Below, piece by piece: positions 1,023 through 38,837 of a stretch of DNA of 43,323 nt. The notes under the pieces are model-generated. The model saw only the letters and a program-made list of their open reading frames with translations, searched no databases and was not told the DNA's origin. The first letter of the stretch is position 1, and each line of letters opens with the position of its first letter. A program made the position numbers and the translations under genes. This stretch comes from a virus. The stretch spans positions 1 through 43,323 of IMG/VR virus record IMGVR_UViG_3300031539_000094. One strand, given 5' to 3'.

Positions 1023-1327
1023 TAGAGCACCTCTTTCATTTCCGCCGGCTTCTCGGCTACGCTCGTGGTGTCAATCGCCGCCAGGGACACGCGGACGAGA
1101 ATCCGGTTCTGCTTATCCTTCGCAGGAACAGGGAGCATGAAACTCGCCAACGTCTTCTCCGTCCCGTCCGCGAGCCGGATAACGACAGTGCCCGCCCCGC
1201 TCTTCGTCGTGTCGAACACCGCCCAACCCTTGTGACCGATGGGGTCAGCCGACCCTATGGAGATAGCCGTCGTAGGCTTCGTCAGCGTGATACCCGCAAC
1301 CGCGTCAAACTCGGTAGAAGATTGCAT
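1022..1327 (-). CDS. Small virion-associated protein upstream of the adhesin, version 1
   Basis: 101 residues. ATG 1327 is chosen because AGGAG lies about 8 nt upstream and the paralogue at 42906-43205 starts at the same place. The compact protein is rich in beta-branched residues (GITLTKPTTAISIGS, VVIRLADGTEKTLASF) with no signal peptide or membrane segment. It is identical or nearly so to the 99-residue copy at the other end of the window except near residues 8-12 (a 2-residue indel) and the C-terminus. Its stop overlaps the adhesin start (TAATG), so the two are translated together; it may be an adhesin adaptor or fibre-base protein. I do not recognise the family. Confidence 0.7.
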   Translation of the reverse strand: MQSSTEFDAVAGITLTKPTTAISIGSADPIGHKGWAVFDTTKSGAGTVVIRLADGTEKTLASFMLPVPAKDKQNRILVRVSLAAIDTTSVAEKPAEMKEVL

Positions 1328-1341
1328 GGTCAAGGCTCCTA

Positions 1342-1917
1342 TCAGGCGATTGCATTCCAGGACAAAATCGCCGTGGCATCTGCCAAGACGTGAAGGTAGG
1401 TGCAACCTGAAACGGGAAGTCTAAAGTTTAGATTCGGCGAGTAGGTTACCCCATGATTCGTTCCAAACGGCGTAGTGGCCGTAGCATTGGCGATAACGTG
1501 ACAAGCCACGTCCAACATGAAGTCAATAAAGGTCGTGCCAGCGGGAATGGCTGCAGCGGCCCACGCTCCACCAGCCACAGTAGATAGCGCGGCTTGTGGA
1601 ACGCCGACACCGCTCTTGATGGCGGCAGCAATCGCGGCGGCGGTGGGACCAGTGAACGTGCCAGTGACAGTGGCAGAGTTGAAGGCGATGTATTCACTGG
1701 TCGCGTCCGGGTTCGTCGTCCAGTTGGCCGTCATGGTTAAGACCGTGGCGGTATTGGTGGATACTTCCCCTAACTGGCCGACGCCCGTTCCGCTAATAAT
1801 GCGAACGAGCGCCCCGGCCAAGAGGTCTGTACCCCACACCTTCGTCGCATCGGTCAACGTGGCCGCACCGCCCGCAGACGCCCGGCCAGAGTCCAAAACG
1901 CTTCCCACCGTGAACAT
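1342..1917 (-). CDS. Virion protein with a GTGxGQ beta module at its N-terminus
   Basis: 191 residues; AAAGGAG sits 6 nt before ATG 1917. Residues ~15-78 contain a module (TKVW...SGTGVGQLGEV...NTATVLTMT...PDATSEYIAF) that recurs in the proteins at 10676-12049, 12046-12849 and more distantly 13226-14002. The middle is Ala/Thr-rich and the end (YSPNLNFRLPVSGCTYLHV) resembles small beta-sandwich receptor or tail-tip domains. It is the first minus-strand gene after the plus-strand insert at 2018-2170 and has a promoter-like GATAATATAAA about 30 nt upstream. A fibre or tail-tip role is inferred from its place before the adhesin. Confidence 0.7.
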   Translation of the reverse strand: MFTVGSVLDSGRASAGGAATLTDATKVWGTDLLAGALVRIISGTGVGQLGEVSTNTATVLTMTANWTTNPDATSEYIAFNSATVTGTFTGPTAAAIAAAIKSGVGVPQAALSTVAGGAWAAAAIPAGTTFIDFMLDVACHVIANATATTPFGTNHGVTYSPNLNFRLPVSGCTYLHVLADATAILSWNAIA

Positions 1918-2198: not shown

Positions 2199-5100
2199 TC
2201 ACTTCCCAACTTTGGCCGGGCGAATCAACCCTTTCTTTTTTGGAGTTTTCTGATAAGTCTGAACGCCGACTCCAGTCCACGAGATTCCCGTGGCCCCCAC
2301 GCCCCAAAGCAACGCCTTCGTAATATCGGGATTTTCCGCGTAGGCATCCTTAAAAGCATCCACGCCATCGTTCAACCACATGAAAAGGAATTGGTTGCGC
2401 GCTTCTTCGCCCCAACCTTCCCATCCCTTGATTTCCTTGCCAAATGCGTCCCGCCCCGTGGTGACTTTCCAGATGCCACTGATTAGCGGGGCCGCCTTGC
2501 CCTTGGCCGCCATCATAATGATTTGACTTCGGTCCTCGGCCTTCTCTTTCGGCGCACCGAATCCCTGAAGATAGGCCGAATAACCCAATCGGGCCATCAG
2601 GCGAATGACGATGCCGTGGCCGCCAGTCAAATCCATGCGCGTATTACCCTTTTTGGCTTTCAGAAAATCCGGTGATAGGGGATTCGTGTCCGTATCCCAA
2701 CCCAGCGCCCTTAAAACCAAGGCCAAGGCCGCTACCTTAAGAGTTCCACCGGCCAGGGTTTCAAGCCCCTGGCGTCGGATAACGGGGTCCGTGGAAAGTG
2801 TCCCGAAAAGCGTAGCCACACTATGAACCCGGCTCCATGTGTAGCGTGTTGAATAAAGCAGCGCGTTGGATATTTCCGTGGCCGAGCGGACGATTTTCGC
2901 GTCCGGCAACACGCCACGACCAATCATGTCGCCAATCCATACGGCGGCTTTGCGTTGTTGTTTGGCAGTGCTAAAACGTCCTTTTGCCTCTAGTTTGGGA
3001 ACGAGTTCCTGATACATCATGTGGGCCGCCAGGTTGGTCCCCGTCACCGCAGCGCGGTTCCCGGCCCGGATAATGGGAATCTTGTTTAATTTACCAGAAG
3101 GATAAAACTCTTCTCGCCGTGCAGCGGGCGTGTCAATGCCCGTTTCTGTGGTCAAGGCATATTTATCCAGCAAGGCCCTTTCGGGAAGTGTTTTCATCCA
3201 GGCATCTATCTCATTGAACTTCCTTTCGCTGAAGAAGGTCACAAGTTCCCACCAAGCCAAACGCGGGAAGTTGGCCGACGGCTTGAGTAAGGCAAGATTT
3301 TTCGCGTCAATCCAGGCCGTCTTTTCAAGTTGTCGACCCACGTTGGAAATATCTCCGGCGGCCTGTAACATTCTGAAAATGGCCCCGACTTCAAGGAAAT
3401 TACGCCAGGCCCGTTCCAGGCCGGACATACGGAGTTGGTCCAGTTGCCATTTGATGTGGTTAACCTCTTCCCTGAGATGAGTTTCTTCCGGACTCAATTT
3501 ACGCACGGGCCGTTCTTCAACGGAATAGTCGCCCTTAGCGAGTTTTTCTTGTAGGACGGCCAGTTCGTTCGTCTTGCGCGTGATATAGGATTTCCGGGCG
3601 CGCTCTTCGGGCGTAGCCTTCGGATTCGCCAAGGCCCGGAGTTCGTCGTACTCGGCCCGCAACGCATCCCGCCGTGAACGCAAGGCTTCAAGTTCTGGGC
3701 TTGTCGGTCCCGGTTGGCGGGTCTTGGCCGCCACGTCGCCTTCACGGATACGCCGTTCGTATTCCGCGATGGACTTTTCGGTGGCGCGAATCGAGGTATT
3801 GAGTCGGGCTTGAGTTTTGGCGGGCTTGACGGGCTTTGCTTCTTTTGCTGGAACCGTCGGCCGAAGCAGTTCACGCCGATTCATCAAGGCCATTTTCCAG
3901 GCATCTTCAAGGAACGGCCTTATTTTCTCACCCAATTTCTTAATGATCGGCGCGGCGGCATCTGCCAGTTTAAAGAACCCGTTTTCTATCTGCCGACCCA
4001 ATAGAACACTCAGGTCGGTCACGATGGCAGGGTCCACGCCGACATTGAGGCGCGACAATCGCGTTTTCAGGTTGGCCTCGGCCCGCGATACCATTTCGTC
4101 CGTGAATAAACGAGAGCGTGGTGCGGTCCCTCGAACCGTGGCTTCCAATTCGGCCACTGTCGTTTCTAATTCGGTTATCGTGGGTCCACGACGGGCCGTT
4201 TCGAGTTCGCGCACTTTGGCTTCGAGTTCCGCGATGCGTTCGGTCTTGGCCTTGAGATTAGCCAACACTTTCGGCGGCGGCTCGATGCCGCCATGCTTAT
4301 CCGCCCAGTCGCGCGTAACGCGAGCCAGGCTGTAATCGGCCTTAAGTTCCGTGTTACGGAATTGCAGCGCCCGGCCAGCCGTTGTTCCACTGGCCCGCGT
4401 GGCTTCGATGACGCGGGTTTCCTCGCCCCGAAGTCTGGCGATGGTCTGTTCCGTTTCCGCCTGGGTTGCCGTGTCGCTGGTTTTCGATTGAGCGATTTTC
4501 TTGTCCAACGCCGAATCCAGTTGATTCCGCACTTCGCGGAGCCGGACCCCAAGAAGGGCCTCGTCTCGAAGCGTCGGAGGCTTGGAAGGATCGGCGGCGA
4601 TACTGTCTATGACTTTCTCGACGGCCTGCGGGTCTTGGCGGTGTTCGGCCAAGGCAAGATCGGCGACTTCCTTATTGGGCAACCGCTCGGGCGTTGCGCG
4701 CTCGGCATAACCCATTTCGGCGGCCCGCTGGTCAGTGTAGGCATTCTTGATAGATGTGGTTTCAGGGACCTGCCCTGCTTGCGCCTGGGCCTCTACGGCT
4801 TCGCCAGGGACGCGCGGAGCCTCGCCCTTGACCTCCGGGGCCTGTTTTGCCGTCGGCGTCGTTCCTGGGGCCTCTGGCACAGGCAATGTGGGCTTCCCCG
4901 GCTGCCATTCCGCCAAGGTCTTGGCAGGCGTACCAGGAGGCTCACCGGGCCGCACGGGGGGTTTAGCACCGGGAGCCTCCTGGGAGGTGATAGCCCGCCC
5001 CGCCACTTCAACCGCCCGCACGGGGGGTGTAGCGGTTTCAACGGCGGGCGCGGGCAACATCTTGGCGATGGCCGTATCCATCTCGGCGAACGACCTATCT

Positions 5101-6215
5101 CCCAACTCCGGCCTTATTGTCTTTATGGCCTGGATAATAGCCTGCTTATTCTTGGGTTTGGCGAGTGCCCATGCCTTGCCGGTCATCTCCATGCCCATGA
5201 AGACAACGCCAATTCCCGAATTGATGATAATTTCTTCCGTGTCTCCACCCGTGGCGGCGGTAGTGCCTCCGAACAAACCGGCCGTGACGACCCCACGTTT
5301 AGCCATCGCACCGAACGTCTTGCCGGGAAACAGTTCACCGACAGTTCCGAACGTTACCTCCATCAGCGCCCCGGTTCCTGGGAATCCGCCGCCGATCTGA
5401 TTGGGTATTTCCCACGTTAAGGATTTCCGAAAAGGAATATTGCTCGGCAAGATTTTCCTTAAGATAATTGTCTGTGCTATAAAGACGGAAAGTCCTGCCA
5501 CGCCATCTACTGTTTTCTCCGCAAAGGTTTCGGCAGGAGTCAGTTTGACCGAAGGCGCATAGAGTTCTACTTCATGAACAGTGGATTCCGTCCTTTTCCT
5601 CCAGTTGGCCCACATCTCGTCAACTTTTTCCAGATTTTCTTCGGTATATGGGATGTGAAAGAAATCGTCGAGCGCCTTAATCATATTCACGACCCGGCCT
5701 GGCGTATTTAACAATTCAATGACACCTTGGTTCCAGATAACGCCCCCAAATCGTTTCAACAGTCCGGGTTTTGCCACATGAACCGCCGCCTCAATGTCGG
5801 CCTGAAGTTGGGCCAGTTCGATGGGTTTATTATCCCTGACCGCAATCCCCATACCGGCTTTGTGCCGGGCGCTGACTTCCGGCAGAGCGTTCCAATCATT
5901 AAAGGCATTCTCCGGCGACGTGCTTTCGTAGATGTACGCCATGTCTTCGGGCGTGATCTTCCGCATCCCGGTCGTGTCGAGTTCCGGTTGCGTCAAGTCC
6001 GATACGCCGAACGACAGGGCGCGACGACCGAACGTAGTCTCGCTGGAAAAGGGTTCGGCGGGCGGCTCTGGCACAAAACCGGATTCAGTAGGCGTCAGCG
6101 TCGGCGCGGGGGCGGCAGGCGCGGCAGGTTCGCCGAGAACCTCCGCGTCGGACAATCCGCGCTGCGGTTGCGGCGCAAGGCCCAAAACTTCCTCATCGGT
6201 TAATGCTAGTGTCAT
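2199..6215 (-). CDS. Very large internal virion / DNA-ejection-like protein
   Basis: 1338 residues, the largest protein of the window. The N-terminus is polar with proline-rich stretches. A hydrophobic stretch lies near residue 235 (VAGLSVFIAQTIILRKIL), followed by a long Pro/Ala/Glu linker (~390-480) and several coiled-coil segments (~645-690, ~800-870, ~905-930). The C-terminal third is more globular and partly hydrophobic. This mosaic matches the giant internal or polyvalent proteins that podophages eject with their DNA; I see no catalytic motif for RNA polymerase, methylase or lysozyme. The start is coupled to the preceding gene by an ATGA overlap. The assignment rests on size, composition and position. 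Confidence 0.7.
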   Translation of the reverse strand: MTLALTDEEVLGLAPQPQRGLSDAEVLGEPAAPAAPAPTLTPTESGFVPEPPAEPFSSETTFGRRALSFGVSDLTQPELDTTGMRKITPEDMAYIYESTSPENAFNDWNALPEVSARHKAGMGIAVRDNKPIELAQLQADIEAAVHVAKPGLLKRFGGVIWNQGVIELLNTPGRVVNMIKALDDFFHIPYTEENLEKVDEMWANWRKRTESTVHEVELYAPSVKLTPAETFAEKTVDGVAGLSVFIAQTIILRKILPSNIPFRKSLTWEIPNQIGGGFPGTGALMEVTFGTVGELFPGKTFGAMAKRGVVTAGLFGGTTAATGGDTEEIIINSGIGVVFMGMEMTGKAWALAKPKNKQAIIQAIKTIRPELGDRSFAEMDTAIAKMLPAPAVETATPPVRAVEVAGRAITSQEAPGAKPPVRPGEPPGTPAKTLAEWQPGKPTLPVPEAPGTTPTAKQAPEVKGEAPRVPGEAVEAQAQAGQVPETTSIKNAYTDQRAAEMGYAERATPERLPNKEVADLALAEHRQDPQAVEKVIDSIAADPSKPPTLRDEALLGVRLREVRNQLDSALDKKIAQSKTSDTATQAETEQTIARLRGEETRVIEATRASGTTAGRALQFRNTELKADYSLARVTRDWADKHGGIEPPPKVLANLKAKTERIAELEAKVRELETARRGPTITELETTVAELEATVRGTAPRSRLFTDEMVSRAEANLKTRLSRLNVGVDPAIVTDLSVLLGRQIENGFFKLADAAAPIIKKLGEKIRPFLEDAWKMALMNRRELLRPTVPAKEAKPVKPAKTQARLNTSIRATEKSIAEYERRIREGDVAAKTRQPGPTSPELEALRSRRDALRAEYDELRALANPKATPEERARKSYITRKTNELAVLQEKLAKGDYSVEERPVRKLSPEETHLREEVNHIKWQLDQLRMSGLERAWRNFLEVGAIFRMLQAAGDISNVGRQLEKTAWIDAKNLALLKPSANFPRLAWWELVTFFSERKFNEIDAWMKTLPERALLDKYALTTETGIDTPAARREEFYPSGKLNKIPIIRAGNRAAVTGTNLAAHMMYQELVPKLEAKGRFSTAKQQRKAAVWIGDMIGRGVLPDAKIVRSATEISNALLYSTRYTWSRVHSVATLFGTLSTDPVIRRQGLETLAGGTLKVAALALVLRALGWDTDTNPLSPDFLKAKKGNTRMDLTGGHGIVIRLMARLGYSAYLQGFGAPKEKAEDRSQIIMMAAKGKAAPLISGIWKVTTGRDAFGKEIKGWEGWGEEARNQFLFMWLNDGVDAFKDAYAENPDITKALLWGVGATGISWTGVGVQTYQKTPKKKGLIRPAKVGK

Positions 6216-10692: not shown

Positions 10693-12049
10693 CCAATAAA
10701 GCAAACGAGACCCTAGAGTCCGTGAACGGCATATCTGTCAAGGCCCCCGTCGGGTTATCGGGCATCCAAAAGGCCGTCGTTATTGACTGTTCCGAAGGCG
10801 TCCCATCCACCTTACTAATTATGGACCGTTCTATGTCGTACTTTTGCAACTGGACTTGGGTTCTTGTATCCCATCCCGCAGGGTCGTAGGCCAGTCCCAT
10901 GATGCAGTCAAAGAGAAGTCCGGTTCCCCATTTTCGCTGATAGAAGTTGAACCTGTTGAACCACAACTTCCCTGCCGTCACCCCAAAGATGTTGGTGCAG
11001 GTGTTGCTGTTAATCAGCCCCACCAAGGCCCGAACCGCATTCAGATTGGAAGTATCCAAGAGCGCACGAATTTGGAAAATGGCCCTGGTCAAGGGTTTTC
11101 CATTGTTCCCTAAGACCTTGACCCACTTCATCGGAACCCGGCCCTTGCCCTCCACGTCTTTGTAATACACTTGGTCAATGCGCACGGCGGGATCGGTATC
11201 GGGAACCACGTCATTGTTCCACAGCACAATCGTCGAGGCTTCGCATTCGAGGATGCCTTTGTTGATAACAATGGTCTCGCCGATGGGCGCGTAGGAATCA
11301 TACTGACAAGTGATTTTCGCCAGGCCGACGCGCCAACGACGTTCGACTTGCTTCTCGCGCAGGAGCGCGTACTGCCAGTTGCCGGTCGCCGCCATCGGCG
11401 TCAGTTCTGGAAACATGGACTCCGCCAACGCCTCGGCCACCGAGTCCACGCAGAGAAACGTCCGCGTTCCAAGATGGCGGCCCTTGCGTCCGGTCAATGG
11501 CTTGCGTTCGATCTCCGTCATCGCCCAAATCTTGTAAGTGATGGTCCCGGTCGGCAGCGGGTCCCAAGCCTTTGCTACTGTGACGACCCCGGCCGTGGTG
11601 TGCGACAGGATAGGTCGCCATTGGCCCGCGCCCGCCGTGGCGGTGACGATGTTGATGGCGTAGTCCACATACAGATTCGCTGCCCAGGTTAGGCCGGTGC
11701 TTAACGTCGAGGCCCCGACCGCCGTAGCCGTTCCAGACACGGCGGAAATGCCGGTGTCGTAGGGCCGCTTCGGTTTCTGATACTGGACCCCCGTCAGATA
11801 GGCCCCATAATCTGGAGCCTTGGCAGCCAAGGCAGACCCCGTGGCCGTAACGACGTAATCCCACGGAGCGCATTCGCCTTCGCGCGCGTCGCCTAGTTGC
11901 GGAACCTGGGCGGGTTGATAGGCGGGCGGAAGTCCGAAATCCTGGAAAATTGTGTAATCTTCCAGCGTCTCGTCGTAACGGAGCGATTCGGGGACCGCAC
12001 GAACGTTCGCCGCCAAAATCCCAAGTTGGCCGTCAGTCATCGCGGTCAC
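10676..12049 (-). CDS. Tail/connector protein of unknown fold carrying the GAGQW beta module
   Basis: 457 residues, GTG start 12049 in a GTGA overlap with the tail tubular gene; ATG 12040 is an alternative. Residues ~105-170 hold the module shared with 12046-12849 and 1342-1917 (TWAANLYVDYAINIV...GAGQWRPILSHTTAGVVTV...TITYKIW). The rest is mixed alpha/beta with no signal peptide. Its place directly after the tail tubular protein corresponds to tail tubular protein B or a tail hub in T7-like phages, but it is shorter and I cannot recognise that family in it. Confidence 0.65.
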   Translation of the reverse strand: MTAMTDGQLGILAANVRAVPESLRYDETLEDYTIFQDFGLPPAYQPAQVPQLGDAREGECAPWDYVVTATGSALAAKAPDYGAYLTGVQYQKPKRPYDTGISAVSGTATAVGASTLSTGLTWAANLYVDYAINIVTATAGAGQWRPILSHTTAGVVTVAKAWDPLPTGTITYKIWAMTEIERKPLTGRKGRHLGTRTFLCVDSVAEALAESMFPELTPMAATGNWQYALLREKQVERRWRVGLAKITCQYDSYAPIGETIVINKGILECEASTIVLWNNDVVPDTDPAVRIDQVYYKDVEGKGRVPMKWVKVLGNNGKPLTRAIFQIRALLDTSNLNAVRALVGLINSNTCTNIFGVTAGKLWFNRFNFYQRKWGTGLLFDCIMGLAYDPAGWDTRTQVQLQKYDIERSIISKVDGTPSEQSITTAFWMPDNPTGALTDMPFTDSRVSFALLDGYLA

Positions 12050-23692: not shown

Positions 23693-23799
23693 GTGTCAAT
23701 GGAGTGCGTAGCGTGAACACAGAAGAGGAGCCGCAAGATCGCTCACGGGGAAGCCCCTGCCTAACGGCTGCGGATTCCATTGACACCGTGGGCGATCTT
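23693..23799 (+). promoter_or_regulatory. 5' leader pseudoknot L5 (HNH gene)
   Basis: A1 23693-23703 (GTGTCAATGGA) pairs perfectly with A2 23776-23786 (11 bp). B1 23735-23747 pairs with B2 23787-23799 (13 bp, one G-U). The order A1-B1-A2-B2 makes a pseudoknot with no gap between A2 and B2. A1 ends in the TGGAG ribosome site of the GTG start at 23713. AGCC/GGCT can pair inside the B1-A2 loop. Confidence 0.8.
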
Positions 23800-24180
23800 A
23801 CTGCCCCTCAAGAGTGGGTAGATTTTGTCGCTTGGCGAAACAAGAACCCCGAAAAGATCGCCACGGGGCTGCGAACGGGACTTTCTCGGCGGCCCACGCG
23901 CGAAGAAGCATATTGGGAGTGGAAGCGCAAGTACGATCTTGAATGGACGAGGGAACTACGAGACGAAATCCGCAAACGGGATGGCTGCGTTTGTCAGTTG
24001 TGCAGCAAGCCGCAGACCGAGTGTGCGCGCAAACTAGACGTTCATCATGTGAATTATAACAAGAAAAACAGTGAACCGCTAAACCTCATTTCTCTCTGCC
24101 GCAGTTGCCATATCACCGTCAACGCCCATCGCGCAAATTGGACAAAATATTTTTCGGAATTCCTATTGACAGGGGCCTGA
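23713..24180 (+). CDS. HNH homing-type endonuclease, plus strand
   Basis: 155 residues from GTG 23713 (TGGAG, 8-nt spacer). Residues 1-45 are encoded by the leader pseudoknot and show no conserved fold. The domain proper begins near EWVDFVAWRNKNPEKI and contains LRDEIRKRDGCVCQLC, then DVHHVNYNKKNSEPLNLISL and CRSCH: Cys knuckles plus His-His...Asn...His. It closely resembles the HNH domain of the recE-fused protein at 32583-34073. A free-standing homing nuclease opposite to its neighbours, between TerS and two small genes. The actual start could lie further downstream. Confidence 0.75.
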   Translation: MNTEEEPQDRSRGSPCLTAADSIDTVGDLTAPQEWVDFVAWRNKNPEKIATGLRTGLSRRPTREEAYWEWKRKYDLEWTRELRDEIRKRDGCVCQLCSKPQTECARKLDVHHVNYNKKNSEPLNLISLCRSCHITVNAHRANWTKYFSEFLLTGA

Positions 24181-31702: not shown

Positions 31703-32599
31703 TTACAGCAGTTCACCTTGTTCCTCAGTCACAGGCGGCACGACTTCGCCGGTATTGGGATCGCGTTCGACTGCCCCCGGCTCGACTTCCTGACAAGCCG
31801 CCAGAACGTCACCGGCCCGTTTGTTAGCCTCGCCCGATGGCGTTGCCGCCCCATTTCTTGAATCTTCCAGCGACGCAATCTCGTCCAGAATCGCCCGGTC
31901 GCTGGGACTAAGGTTGACGTGCTTACAAAGTCTGCGGATTGGGGCCTTGCGTAGCATCTCGGCCAGGTCTGTGACATAGGCCCCCTGCTGTGCCTGTCTG
32001 CTCTTGCTGCGGATATGGTCTAGGTCCTGGCGGTTCATGTGTTCGGCCAGGGCCTCGCCGCCGCCGAGAAGGGCTATGGCGTAGGCCGCGACGATATGTT
32101 TGTCGTCGTGGCTGGCCGTCATACTCGGCCTGTGGACGATGGGCGGCTGCAAGCCTATCTGGACAACGTACTCGTCGCCCTCATAGACGACGCCGCTCTG
32201 GATGCCCTTGACCTGTCCGCTCCGATAGGCCAGCGCCTCATAACCTCGGAAGCCCACCATCAGCGTACAGGTGTTCTTGAAGGGGATCAAATATGCCTGC
32301 CCCATCACGCCACCTATGACCATGCCATACCGCGCCGCGTCGGCCACGCTCTTCAGGATGCTCGTGCCAGTGCAGGCGAGTAGGTACGGTTGCAACTTCG
32401 GATCGGCCAGGGCGATAGCGCTGATGCCCGTGGAGATGATAAGGTCGGCCGAGACTCCCGCGACCTTGGCGACGTGCTCCGCGACCGCCGCCGCGTTCGC
32501 CAAGAGCATCGTCCGCGCGTTCTCGACCGTTTGCACGGGGGCCGACAGGGGCCGCGTATAGACCACCACGGCCTTGCCATTATCAGGTGATGTAGCCAT
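31703..32599 (-). CDS. recT: RecT-family single-strand annealing protein
   Basis: 298 residues from ATG 32599 (AAGGAGG with a 6-nt spacer; overlaps recE by 17 nt). RecT-core features: helical start (AVAEHVAKVAGVSADLII), QPYLLACTGTSILKSVADAA, GQAYLIPFKNTCTLMVGFRG, a basic SPSDRA/RKAPIRRLCKHV stretch and the low-complexity acidic C-terminus (EVVPPVTEEQGELL). It pairs with the exonuclease encoded just upstream to recombine linear DNA ends. Confidence 0.88.
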   Translation of the reverse strand: MATSPDNGKAVVVYTRPLSAPVQTVENARTMLLANAAAVAEHVAKVAGVSADLIISTGISAIALADPKLQPYLLACTGTSILKSVADAARYGMVIGGVMGQAYLIPFKNTCTLMVGFRGYEALAYRSGQVKGIQSGVVYEGDEYVVQIGLQPPIVHRPSMTASHDDKHIVAAYAIALLGGGEALAEHMNRQDLDHIRSKSRQAQQGAYVTDLAEMLRKAPIRRLCKHVNLSPSDRAILDEIASLEDSRNGAATPSGEANKRAGDVLAACQEVEPGAVERDPNTGEVVPPVTEEQGELL

Positions 32600-33515
32600 C
32601 GTCATCCTCCTTTTCTTCTTCCAGTGGCAGCGCACGGCCCGCCAGTTGTGCGCGTCGTTTCAGTTCTTCTTCGAGGCCCTCGCTGTAGGCGCTCCACTCT
32701 TGACCCGCCCACCCCGGTAATAATAAATCTTGCAAGCCAGTCGGGTACGCGGGCCAGTCCTGGTATTTCTCGCACAAGGCCAGCGACCGCAAGGCGTCGG
32801 CCACCTGAGCGCGGCCGAGTTCAATCTGTTCTTCGCCGATGCGGAAGCACTGAATCTGGTACGGCGGTTCCTTCTCGAGCGCCGCCAGGATGTACGTCTT
32901 AAACTCGTGGCCGCAAGCCTTCAGGCCCTCGGCGTACATGGCCGCTTGAAAGAGGTATCCGTTGCGGTAAGCGTCGCTGCCGAACCGCTGGGCGCTGGCC
33001 GACTGGCAGGTTTTCAGGTCAACGATGACGCCCGCATGGGTGTTCACGGCGTCCAGGCGACCCTTCAACAGCAGCCCGCTCTCGGCCTGTGTCCACTGAA
33101 GGCTGACCTCGGTTTTCATTGTCGCCAGGAGTTTGCCAAGATAGGGGTCGGCGTGGATGGCTTGGCTTAGCGCAAGTCCGGTGTCGTAGGTCGCCTGCGG
33201 GAGTACCGGCTTGGCTTGCGCCGCCGACCATTCCGCATAGGCTTTCGTTTCCTCTCCAAACGGCTTGCCCGTGCGCTCGTTAACAGGCCCTCCGACGATG
33301 TATTCCGCTTTGAACCGCTCCGGTTCCAGGAGCATCATGTGAATGGCCGCTCCGTCACGCATGGCTTTGGTTGTGGTTTCGTCGGGGTGATCCTGTTCCC
33401 ACTTAAACCGCGCCGGGGTCTCCCCATACAAGGTCCAGCAACGGGAGCGCGACAGACCTTCCCAAGCGTGGTAAGTCTCGAACGGCACATCGTAGAAGAT
33501 TCCGGTATCGCTCAT
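32583..33515 (-). CDS. recE: RecE-like PD-(D/E)XK exonuclease (internal start form)
   Basis: 310 residues from ATG 33515, which has its own AAGGGAG site with a 4-5 nt spacer. RecE/YqaJ-type signature: YHAWEGLSRSRCWTLYGETPARF, KAMRDGAAIHMMLLEPERF, then LLLKGRLDAV...GVIVDLKTC (catalytic D and D-x-K, residues ~153-172) and GYLFQAAMYAEGL. It degrades one strand of duplex ends to load RecT. The frame continues upstream without a stop into an HNH domain (next entry), so this protein is probably made both alone and fused. Confidence 0.8.
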   Translation of the reverse strand: MSDTGIFYDVPFETYHAWEGLSRSRCWTLYGETPARFKWEQDHPDETTTKAMRDGAAIHMMLLEPERFKAEYIVGGPVNERTGKPFGEETKAYAEWSAAQAKPVLPQATYDTGLALSQAIHADPYLGKLLATMKTEVSLQWTQAESGLLLKGRLDAVNTHAGVIVDLKTCQSASAQRFGSDAYRNGYLFQAAMYAEGLKACGHEFKTYILAALEKEPPYQIQCFRIGEEQIELGRAQVADALRSLALCEKYQDWPAYPTGLQDLLLPGWAGQEWSAYSEGLEEELKRRAQLAGRALPLEEEKEDDDGYIT

Positions 33516-34073
33516 GTTCTCCCTTTCAGCGCTCGCTTCAAGCCTAACCTTCCAATATTGCCGCCGCATGTTCGTCCGAGAATGACATGACACACAAAGC
33601 GTAATCAGGTTGAGTGGGTCGCTGTCCTTTTTGTTGTAGTTAATATGGTGGACCGACAGGGCCGTCTTGCACTCGGCCTGCGGTACACCGCACAACTGAC
33701 ACTTATAAAAATCCCGACGGCGGACCTCCTCTTTCAATTCCTCATTGAACGCCCAGGCGTAGAGATTGCGCAAATTTCCGCCCAACCACGCCGGGCTATT
33801 TGGACCACTCAAGGCCGCGCTTATTTTAGCCCGCGTCTCTGGAGAAACCACGCGCCCTCTGTTCGCCGCGCTTATTTTGGCCCGCGTCTCTGGAGAAAAC
33901 ACGTGCCTTCTTTTCGCCGCACTCATCTTGGCCCGCGTCTCTGGAGAAACCACGTGCCCCTTAAGCGCGGCGCTCAGCCTTGCCCGCGTCTCTGGAGTGT
34001 ATCTGTGCCCCCTCCTCGCCGCACTCATCTTGGCCCGCATCTCTGGAGTGTGTTTGTGGCCTAACATTGACAT
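32583..34073 (-). CDS. NUMOD3-HNH endonuclease fused in frame to RecE
   Basis: 496 residues from ATG 34073 (CAGGAG, 6-7 nt). Residues ~8-92 hold five tandem NUMOD3 DNA-binding repeats (SPETRAKMSAAKRR-like, period 17). The HNH domain follows at ~118-172: RRRDFYKCQLC, VHHINYNKKDSDPLNLITLC, CHSR. Residues 187-496 are complete RecE. No stop separates them and the native recE start is intact. This looks like a homing-endonuclease cassette inserted just before recE whose stop was lost. The HNH domain is a close relative of that at 23713-24180. Confidence 0.75.
   Translation of the reverse strand: MSMLGHKHTPEMRAKMSAARRGHRYTPETRARLSAALKGHVVSPETRAKMSAAKRRHVFSPETRAKISAANRGRVVSPETRAKISAALSGPNSPAWLGGNLRNLYAWAFNEELKEEVRRRDFYKCQLCGVPQAECKTALSVHHINYNKKDSDPLNLITLCVSCHSRTNMRRQYWKVRLEASAERENMSDTGIFYDVPFETYHAWEGLSRSRCWTLYGETPARFKWEQDHPDETTTKAMRDGAAIHMMLLEPERFKAEYIVGGPVNERTGKPFGEETKAYAEWSAAQAKPVLPQATYDTGLALSQAIHADPYLGKLLATMKTEVSLQWTQAESGLLLKGRLDAVNTHAGVIVDLKTCQSASAQRFGSDAYRNGYLFQAAMYAEGLKACGHEFKTYILAALEKEPPYQIQCFRIGEEQIELGRAQVADALRSLALCEKYQDWPAYPTGLQDLLLPGWAGQEWSAYSEGLEEELKRRAQLAGRALPLEEEKEDDDGYIT
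33797..34052 (-). repeat. Five 51-nt tandem repeats encoding NUMOD3 motifs
   Basis: Each unit encodes (S/T)PE(T/M)RA(K/R)(M/L/I)SAA with a variable 5-residue tail. Coding repeat, not a CRISPR. Confidence 0.85.
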
Positions 34074-34174
34074 GACGTTCTCCTGATGTCAGAAAGCGGT
34101 CCACGCACAGACAGGAGGTAGTGGAGAGATAGGACTCTCGCGCCTGCCCAGCATGGACCGCCTTGCAACATCAT
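34061..34174 (-). CDS. 37-codon leader frame of L2
   Basis: ATG 34174 (GGAG in A1, 8-nt spacer) to TAG 34061, running through B1, A2 and B2 and overlapping the first codons of the HNH-recE gene out of frame. Peptide not conserved with the other leaders. Confidence 0.5.
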   Translation of the reverse strand: MMLQGGPCWAGARVLSLHYLLSVRGPLSDIRRTSCQC

Positions 34175-34192
34175 TGGATTCTCTCCACTACC
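34093..34192 (-). promoter_or_regulatory. 5' leader pseudoknot L2 (HNH-recE-recT operon)
   Basis: A1 34192-34180 (GGTAGTGGAGAGA) pairs perfectly with A2 34129-34117 (13 bp). B1 34164-34151 pairs with B2 34106-34093 (14 bp, two G-U). A 10-nt spacer separates A2 and B2. A1 contains the GGAG site for ATG 34174. The transcript from the promoter at 34199-34226 should begin at A1. Confidence 0.85.
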
Positions 34193-34198
34193 ACAAGC

Positions 34199-34226
34199 AT
34201 GTTAGCACCCCGCCAAACCGCGTCAA
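34199..34226 (-). promoter_or_regulatory. Sigma-70-type promoter of the HNH-recE operon
   Basis: TTGACG (34226-34221), 16 nt, TAACAT (34204-34199) on the minus strand. Confidence 0.82.
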
Positions 34227-35570: not shown

Positions 35571-36400
35571 GCTCCACCTCCCGCTGCCCGGACTTTCGCC
35601 AGATACTTTTCATCAACCTCGCCGCGACGCGCGGCGGTCCTGCCCAAGTGGAATGTGTTAGCCAACGTCCGCCAGTCTCTGCGCGCCAAAGCCTGCGGGC
35701 AGAACTTCGTCCAGTAGGCCACAATCACGCGCTGCGCGTACTCGGCATCGCGGCAATCCTGCCAGTCGCCCTTGACGCCGGAGTCCTTGTGGAACGATTC
35801 GTGAATCTGACAAGGTCCGATGGCGAGGAACTTGCGATGCTTCTTGCTCCAATCGCCGTCCGGCGGGTTCGCTCGACCGCCGCTCTCCACCAGGCGGATT
35901 GCGTTCAACAGGGGGGTTAGAGCCAATAGCAATTCAGCCTCTTTTATTCGTTGCGCTCTAGCGGAGAGATAAGCAATGTGCGCCTTTTCGGCGGTATCAA
36001 AAACGCCGACCACTATGGGTTGATCTCCGCCAATTCTTGCCTGAAATCTTCCTTCGTTTTGGCTGCGGACACCCAAGGGCAATCCCAAGCGTGTTGGGTT
36101 ACGACGATGACCATTACGATGGTTCAGTAATTCCGTTGAAGGCCGTAGGTTAGAACGCCTATTGTCCAATCCATCACCGTTAATATGGTCAACCTGCAAT
36201 TCTTTGTCCGGGTTTAAGATAACGCGGTGCATTAGTATGTTCGCCGCACCTACCCCATCCGACAGTAATCGTCCCCGTGCCGCATACCACGGCCACGTTG
36301 GGGCCGAGTGCATGGCGTGCCATTTCCACTGTGAAAGAAAACCATAATCTCTATCGTCCACGAGTGCCACTTTACCCTGCGTCAGCGGAATTGTTTTCAT
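35567..36400 (-). CDS. AP2/HNH endonuclease fused in frame to a lysozyme/transglycosylase domain
   Basis: 277 residues from ATG 36400 (CGGAG upstream; it overlaps the leader stop as ATGA). Residues 1-140 are an AP2-type HNH protein: MKTIPLTQGKVALVDDRDYG, LMHRVILNPDKELQVDHING, DGLDNRRSNLRP, then an AP2 segment (GRFQARIGG...VGVFDTAEKAHIAYL). From ~155 the fold is an SLT/lysozyme-like muralytic domain: LLNAIRLVESGGRANPPDGD (catalytic E in VESGG), LAIGPCQIHESFHKD, YAQRVIVAYWTKFCP, ANTFHLG. The muralytic part is presumably the phage endolysin, now translated behind an invading HNH module. Confidence 0.7.
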   Translation of the reverse strand: MKTIPLTQGKVALVDDRDYGFLSQWKWHAMHSAPTWPWYAARGRLLSDGVGAANILMHRVILNPDKELQVDHINGDGLDNRRSNLRPSTELLNHRNGHRRNPTRLGLPLGVRSQNEGRFQARIGGDQPIVVGVFDTAEKAHIAYLSARAQRIKEAELLLALTPLLNAIRLVESGGRANPPDGDWSKKHRKFLAIGPCQIHESFHKDSGVKGDWQDCRDAEYAQRVIVAYWTKFCPQALARRDWRTLANTFHLGRTAARRGEVDEKYLAKVRAAGGGA

Positions 36401-37147: not shown

Positions 37148-37663
37148 CTATCCCGCCAGTTTTATTGATGCTCCGTGCCAGAACTTGCGGTGACAGTCTA
37201 TGTGTGCCGTGATTCCGTTGGCGACTTCGTAACGGAGTTTGGGATACTTAACCCACGCAAACAGATGGTGGGCGTGCAACTTGCCACTGCGTTCTCCACA
37301 AACAGAGCACCGGAAATCGTCGCGGACGAAAATGGCTTTTCGCCACTCTTTATATCTGACGCATCCTATTTCTCGGTGTCTATCTGTCCCCCTTCCGCCT
37401 CGCCAATTTGAGTTGCTAGCGCCCCTCTGGTTCACACTTAACCTTGCCCGTGTCTCTGGCGAACGCTTACAACCCAAGGAACGCTTATTGCCCAATGCAG
37501 CAACGCTCATTCGATAGCGGGTCTCGGCGAGGTGTCGCGTTCCAAGATGTGCCGCATGAAGAATTTCTAACGCAGCCGCCTGTTTTTCAGACGGTTGGCG
37601 TCCCCTGCGCATTTTGCTCATTTGGGCGCGAGTTTCTGCGGAATGGTGGCTTCCCAATTTCAT
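37148..37663 (-). CDS. NUMOD3-HNH homing endonuclease
   Basis: 171 residues from ATG 37663 (GCGGGAAA upstream). NUMOD3-like repeats at ~5-75 (HSAETRAQMSKMRRG, HLAETRYRMSVAALG, RSPETRARLSVNQRG) precede an HNH domain: WRKAIFVRDDFRCSVCGERS, LHAHHLFAWVKYPKLRYEVA, NGITAHIDCHRKFWHG. Free-standing, with its own perfect -10 promoter and no pseudoknot leader. It lies just upstream of the anchor-lysozyme gene, a plausible homing target. Confidence 0.82.
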   Translation of the reverse strand: MKLGSHHSAETRAQMSKMRRGRQPSEKQAAALEILHAAHLGTRHLAETRYRMSVAALGNKRSLGCKRSPETRARLSVNQRGASNSNWRGGRGTDRHREIGCVRYKEWRKAIFVRDDFRCSVCGERSGKLHAHHLFAWVKYPKLRYEVANGITAHIDCHRKFWHGASIKLAG

Positions 37664-38015: not shown

Positions 38016-38223
38016 TTTGGTCTCCGTGCGTCAGTTCGCCCTTCGCCTGGGCTTCTTGCAGATTCGCCAGGTCAAGGCATTGCTCGGCGGCGGCGTTGCA
38101 AATCGCTTGGAGCGCGGGGTTGTCCATACGGGCCTCGAAGTTCGCTTTGTCATCGAGGTACTTAGCGACCGCGCGGACCGTCACGATGCGGCGATGCTGC
38201 TCCTGTTGTGCCGGCGTCATCAT
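38005..38223 (-). CDS. Hypothetical helical 72-residue protein
   Basis: ATG 38223 overlaps the stop of the AP2-HNH gene (ATGA), with GGGAG upstream. All-helical (QQEQHRRIVTVRAVAKYLDD, ALQAICNAAAEQCLDLANLQ). No family recognised. Confidence 0.55.
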   Translation of the reverse strand: MMTPAQQEQHRRIVTVRAVAKYLDDKANFEARMDNPALQAICNAAAEQCLDLANLQEAQAKGELTHGDQNEH

Positions 38224-38837
38224 GTCAGGCTCCCTTGCATTTCTGTAATTGCCACTTCGGCCTCCGAAATGCTCTTCGCCCGCGCTTCCAAGTAGGCTGC
38301 ATGGGCCTCGGCGGGCGTATCAAATGTGCCGAGGTGACATTGCTTTCCAGCACAGATAATCTTGGACTGGAAACGGCCCCGACCCTTCCTCTGCTTAACG
38401 CCCATCGGCAAATCAGATTTATGGTTAGATGGAACTCCGTGACGATTCAGAGAATTAAGCGACCGAGTTGCATGCCGAAGGTTGGCCCTGCGATTGTCCA
38501 AACCATTGCCGTTAATGTGGTCAATAATAAGTCCCTCTCGATAACCTAAAACCATCTGGTGCATATAGACAATGCGATCTTTTTGACATGGGGACGCCCG
38601 CCAAGAGAAACAAGCGTAAGAGGTAGCCTTTCGACGCTCCACGCGCCATTCTAATTTTGACAACTTCTCATAGTCGGCAGCATCAACAAGAGCCGCCCTT
38701 CCGTGCCCCAAAGGAATCGTGCGCGGACGAGCAACGCCGCCCTGGTTGATTGGGGAATCGGCCGTGGACCCGGAGGTCCGTGGCATGACCAGGACGGCGT
38801 TGCAAGCATCCGCTTGAATGATGGTGTTTCGTCGCAT
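38220..38837 (-). CDS. AP2/HNH homing endonuclease
   Basis: 205 residues from ATG 38837 (GGAAGGGG upstream). Residues 1-45 are encoded by pseudoknot L4 and are not conserved. The canonical AP2-HNH start TIPLGHGRAALVDAADYEKL appears only after them. HNH: MHQMVLGYREGLIIDHINGN, GLDNRRANLRHATRSLNSLN; AP2: RGRFQSKIICAGKQCHLGTF, DTPAEAHAAYLEARA. A paralogue of the HNH part of 35567-36400. Free-standing and coupled to the next gene by ATGA. Confidence 0.82.
   Translation of the reverse strand: MRRNTIIQADACNAVLVMPRTSGSTADSPINQGGVARPRTIPLGHGRAALVDAADYEKLSKLEWRVERRKATSYACFSWRASPCQKDRIVYMHQMVLGYREGLIIDHINGNGLDNRRANLRHATRSLNSLNRHGVPSNHKSDLPMGVKQRKGRGRFQSKIICAGKQCHLGTFDTPAEAHAAYLEARAKSISEAEVAITEMQGSLT

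Follow-up and report, generated by a model that had tools for sequence, protein, structure and literature searches.

On the minus strand of the window, by which we mean the whole 43,323-nucleotide stretch of viral DNA analysed here, positions 34073 to 32583 form a single open reading frame of 496 codons that begins with ATG and contains no internal stop. Two complete proteins are joined in this frame without a stop between them: a homing endonuclease of the HNH type and a RecE / exonuclease VIII (Table 1). Pfam searches with the 496-residue product returned NUMOD3 in five stretches (E = 2.5e-20), HNH (PF01844, E = 1e-5, over the cut-off), and the DUF3799/RecE PDDEXK domain (E = 3.4e-31), and its PHROG matches comprise exonuclease VIII (2e-74) as well as HNH/homing endonuclease families. 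The adjoining gene encodes RecT (PF03837, E = 2e-33), so that RecE is found in the pairing with RecT that characterizes RecE / exonuclease VIII. These results bear out the initial annotation, which had described a NUMOD3-HNH protein running stop-free into a complete RecE with RecT directly behind it.

Table 1. Features of the HNH-recE-recT locus, further HNH genes of the window, and leader elements in the window and in other phage contigs.
Feature	Sequence	Position	Strand	Remarks
RecT single-strand annealing protein	window	31703..32605	-	start inside recE end
RecE / exonuclease VIII (DUF3799, PDDEXK)	window	32583..33515	-	residues 187-496, complete; own ATG and Shine-Dalgarno site, in frame with HNH
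NUMOD3 x5-HNH homing endonuclease part	window	33516..34073	-	residues 1-186, without stop codon of its own
Leader ORF, 37 codons	window	34061..34174	-	start codon immediately follows helix A, which contains GGAG; stop codon 13 nt beyond HNH start codon; putatively translated
Structured leader, interleaved helices A and B	window	34084..34192	-	109 nt; before HNH gene; crossing-helix scan score 33.6
Predicted sigma-70-type promoter TTGACG-N16-TAACAT	window	34199..34226	-	9/12 consensus; -10 box ends 6 nt before leader element
Further HNH gene	window	23713-24180	+
Further HNH gene	window	37148-37663	-
Further HNH gene	window	38220-38837	-
Leader element	window	23693-23809	+	before HNH gene
Leader element	window	28838-28726	-	before DnaD-like replication initiation gene
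Leader element	window	36529-36416	-	before HNH gene
Leader element	window	38856-38731	-	before HNH gene
Leader elements	G001 (L093 contig)	5215-5331, 1230-1347		one before HNH gene, one elsewhere
Leader element	G002 (L094 contig)	11240-11350		before ortholog of the window's replication initiation gene
Leader elements	L076 (apparently unrelated phage)	2603-2693, 4629-4725		before two GIY-YIG-like/NUMOD3 genes (GIY-YIG called by eye)

The HNH part has a natural length, as the free-standing relatives L038, L041, and L057 stop one residue beyond query residue 186. RecE, read from ATG 33515, aligns from residue 1 with the point where independent RecE proteins begin, and the ribosome site of this gene, GAAAGGGAGAAC, scores -7.7 kcal/mol against the anti-Shine-Dalgarno sequence (start region GAAAGGGAG, likewise -7.7 kcal/mol). 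The claim that RecE has preserved its own start codon and ribosome site thus holds. The HNH start has the site AGGAG (-7.4 kcal/mol). In the alignment, the HNH catalytic residues H142, H143, and N155 are invariant and the four zinc cysteines intact; catalytic motif and DNA-binding motifs, i.e., PF01844 and the five NUMOD3 stretches, together identify an HNH homing endonuclease. The RecE part carries the invariant residues H59, D155, D166, and K168 of the PDDEXK fold and matches E. coli RecE (PDB 3h4r; 26% identity, Foldseek E = 6.6e-15). Judged by these residues, both nuclease active sites are intact. An AlphaFold2 model of the fusion shows two confident domains (mean pLDDT 87, HNH and RecE blocks mostly >90) that are connected by a short, less certain linker (residues 181-190, pLDDT 64). 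An intron-encoded homing endonuclease or a ribozyme was rejected, as recE is unsplit and a search of the whole window produced neither an Rfam match at E values up to 1 nor a tRNA.

The products that can be encoded by this arrangement are the 496-residue fusion and the 310-residue RecE. Because there is no stop between the parts, starts at 34073 yield only the fusion, any HNH made carries RecE, and native RecE needs the internal start. The initial annotation had placed a fusion beside the native RecE start; by sequence this stands, with the correction that a separate 186-residue HNH protein cannot be made. At its start recE has the sequence ATGA, in which the TGA is shifted by one frame relative to HNH, so that a one-base difference separates the genes. 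In the usual state the HNH stop might then overlap the recE start, and the join could result from an error in sequencing or assembly or from a recent frameshift of one base. A single-base length change would give the same ATGA overlap that is present in the relative L093 (see below) and after the HNH gene at 38220, and the junction rests on one assembly since L191, the one other contig found to be identical to part of this virus, does not contain recE. We consider this explanation not very likely, however, because L191 shows 0 differences over 3,465 overlapping bases, suggesting that the assembly is accurate, and because the junction lies outside any long homopolymer.

The nearest relatives of the locus were found via RecT. 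In the closest one, L093 (IMGVR_UViG_3300032046_000065; contig labelled G001), HNH and RecE are 59 and 60% identical, respectively, to their counterparts in the window. There, HNH is a separate gene that ends with its own TGA stop and overlaps its next gene by ATGA; a 68-codon ORF follows and then recE, placing HNH two genes upstream of recE. An exact direct repeat, AAAGGGGCGGGCGAATGA, at positions 3802-3819 and 4008-4025 of L093 ends both the HNH gene and the 68-codon ORF, and judging from its placement the small ORF could be deleted through it by recombination. A recE without the HNH part, for which the initial annotation had proposed to look, is found in the next relative, L094 (contig labelled G002; recE 64%, recT 63%), but the genes upstream of it differ from those of the window and it does not represent a clean empty site. 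No other HNH near recE was detected among 51 RecE loci retrieved with a profile search of viral and genome contigs, a set in which L093 and L094 appear again. The NUMOD3-HNH phage endonucleases (PHROG 314, 8446, 119; L093, L009, L010) share the motifs, zinc cysteines, and HNH residues of the window protein, but none of the HNH/NUMOD3 relatives examined is continued by another long gene, and no tail extends more than 120 residues beyond the match. The fusion protein has matches in 1,674 phage records, none of which reaches 80% coverage of its length. The names of the best BFVD fold matches include no HNH-RecE fusion, nor did the open-access literature yield one. Instead of a fusion family conserved in several lineages, we thus find the two genes separate in L093 and HNH absent in L094, with no fusion at the other loci searched. 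As far as these sequences go, the fused state is seen in one lineage only, and they do not prove the direction of change, i.e., loss of a stop or gene here versus gain in L093.

The fold and the conserved PDDEXK residues are shared with known RecE / exonuclease VIII proteins (PDB 3h4r, PHROG 412), but these have no HNH nuclease at the N-terminus: the long N-terminus of E. coli RecE is unrelated to HNH, and Mycobacterium phage RecE carries a Cys-rich ribbon. Apparent HNH-RecE homologs in Mycobacterium phages were dismissed because the tblastn match, from residue 124 on, is to this ribbon and not to HNH; the ribbon probably also accounts for the match of PHROG 412 in the HNH region. The Cys-rich, ribbon-like region comprises about 65 residues in RecE of Gclasvirinae Mycobacterium phages (L089 2974-4065, L090 1977-3065, L092 1974-3053).

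Comparison with L093 gave a dN of 0.36 for HNH and 0.34 for RecE, with silent sites near or past saturation. Equal dN of the two parts at saturated silent sites indicates that HNH is under purifying selection, is not decaying, and has long been linked to recE. GC3 of the HNH genes in the window (0.48-0.66) is lower than that of core genes (0.72-0.76), as would be expected of mobile genes; the recE-adjoining HNH, at 0.66, is nearer to recE than the other HNH genes (0.48-0.57), which would fit a long residence. HNH genes often decay, and recE has a start of its own, two points that would speak for a dead HNH remnant with only RecE from ATG 33515 being made. We regard this as highly improbable in view of the dN of 0.36 against saturated silent sites, the intact catalytic residues and zinc cysteines, and the presence of a promoter-like sequence, a leader, and a ribosome site.

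We consider it reasonably probable that what sits directly upstream of recE-recT is a free-standing homing endonuclease gene of the phage, equipped with a promoter and a structured leader of its own, and that the fusion is tolerated as a by-product without having been selected for. In this lineage, the HNH stop would have been lost, or a small intervening gene deleted, bringing HNH and recE into one frame; with no spacing and no stop, chance would yield a fusion in one of three frames. The HNH 3' end would also supply the recE ribosome site. Ribosomes starting at 34073 would produce the 496-residue HNH-RecE and those starting at 33515 native RecE. In a mixed infection, HNH would presumably nick or cut the HNH-less allele, following the general homing mechanism (PMC2988022), and the phage RecE/RecT, fused or free, would repair the lesion by copying the cassette in.

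The other HNH genes of the window, which contains five in total, point in the same direction. The gene at 38220 ends in an ATGA overlap with its next gene, and at 36400-35567 (minus strand) there is a second in-frame join, in which an HNH_3 homing endonuclease is continued by a transglycosylase-like domain (weak match to PHROG 21776, E = 0.0055). The HNH genes of this phage are thus commonly packed tightly against the next start, a setting in which in-frame joins arise naturally. Clusters of homing endonuclease genes beside essential phage genes are known (PMC10448857). Even as a by-product, the join would illustrate that a mobile nuclease at a start codon easily becomes part of a host protein.

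Alternatively, the fusion might have been selected as an enzyme in which HNH brings RecE to its own nick or break, RecE and then RecT process it, and homing becomes faster. Purifying selection on HNH and the intact two-domain model would also be expected of a useful fusion and count against a mere by-product. Both active sites are intact, the domains are well folded in the model with a short linker between them, RecT comes directly next, and 496 codons are free of stops. Other RecE proteins also have N-terminal additions, such as the ribbon of the Mycobacterium phages and the long N-terminal region in PHROG 607, and the route from the nick of an HNH enzyme to recombination is an open question (PMC2988022). 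Against selection of the fusion, the nearest relative L093 has two separate genes with an ORF between them, no second instance was seen among phage records, HNH ORFs, RecE loci, or best BFVD fold matches, and RecE has kept its own start and ribosome site. We therefore judge a selected fusion to be distinctly unlikely. Of the two readings offered by the initial annotation, the stronger support goes to a fusion that arose as a by-product of where the cassette sits, given L093, L094, and the lack of any other fusion in the collections searched; its 'cut-resect-anneal homing machine' finds no comparative support and is unlikely, though the two intact active sites and the two predicted folded domains leave it some probability. 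The join probably arose in this lineage as a side effect of where a selfish gene is located, rather than as a purpose-built cutting-and-repair machine. A fusion that is both expressed and active would nevertheless provide a natural experiment on how a possibly nick-only HNH lesion becomes recombination, a question that is open in the homing field.

A phage HNH gene as such is known already, whereas an HNH gene in frame with recE is new. The arrangement resembles that of T4-like MobE (T4, Aeh1), where an HNH gene lies between phage genes and adjoins a nucleotide or recombination gene, a structured RNA covers the translation start, and start and stop codons overlap (PMC2988022; PMC3014915). In contrast to MobE, the nuclease described here has no stop before the next gene and has a predicted promoter of its own, and the mobE hairpin is replaced by an interleaved helix pair and a leader ORF. 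A long and a short product from one frame with an internal start are likewise reported for lysA of mycobacteriophage Ms6, which has a second endolysin within its frame (PMC3111421); both Ms6 products belong to one enzyme, whereas the longer product here adds an unrelated mobile nuclease.

In the leader of the HNH-RecE gene, helix A pairs 34192-34180 with 34129-34117 (13 bp) and helix B pairs 34173-34151 with 34106-34084 (about 20 bp), the B' end adjoining the HNH Shine-Dalgarno site. The order A-B-A'-B' corresponds to a pseudoknot topology. Helix A would hold the ribosome site of the leader ORF while B' abuts that of the gene, and both sites would become accessible once ribosomes translate the leader; the effect of the leader is thus likely translational. 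In effect it would resemble the mobE hairpin and the I-TevI leader (PMC3014915; PMC2988022), but its form differs. An HDV-like ribozyme was considered on topology and dropped, since a helix A of 11-20 bp and loops of this kind appear to be a poor match for it.

A crossing-helix scan of the window revealed five such elements with scores of 31.7-34.5, compared to a best score of 30.0 and a median of 22 in 200 composition-preserving shuffles. In the window and in the L093 and L094 contigs, the leader elements are 109-126 nt long and coincide with the predicted start of transcription. The architecture is common to four of the window's five HNH genes and to relatives, with mutually unrelated helix sequences; the HNH gene at 37663 has a near-consensus promoter, read by eye as TTGCAA-N16-TATAAT, and no leader element. 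Pairing that is kept at orthologous positions while the helix sequences are unrelated is as expected of a structure maintained by compensation. In the L076 copies, helix A is wholly changed on both sides, and B and an inner helix show compensating changes. A separate leader ORF of 36-43 codons is present in five elements, where it begins at or just behind A (in one case requiring a GTG start) and has its stop 4-26 nt beyond the start codon of the following gene; in three elements the leader ORF continues into the gene, and it is absent from both L076 copies.

The leader is not a general property of HNH genes: of 75 HNH upstream regions only two, both in L076, scored above random controls, and in other phages the genes related to the HNH-AP2 gene are without it. 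A search of viral contigs found no orthologs of the replication gene. The elements in the window matched no Rfam family (E up to 1), and such a leader was not found in the open-access literature. We give roughly even chances to the proposal that these elements form an undescribed 5' leader family, with a long hairpin terminating at the ribosome site, a loop region that pairs with the first transcript bases, and usually a 36-43 codon ORF stopping 4-26 nt past the next start or running into that gene in frame, and that in this phage group, and perhaps in a phage unrelated to it, they regulate how homing endonuclease genes and a replication gene are translated. The leader is a more novel item than the fusion, and the shared leader would offer a new view of how phages restrain selfish nucleases. 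We also observed that the region 37072-36401, upstream of the HNH gene at 36400, is open in the same frame as that gene despite containing a promoter and leader.
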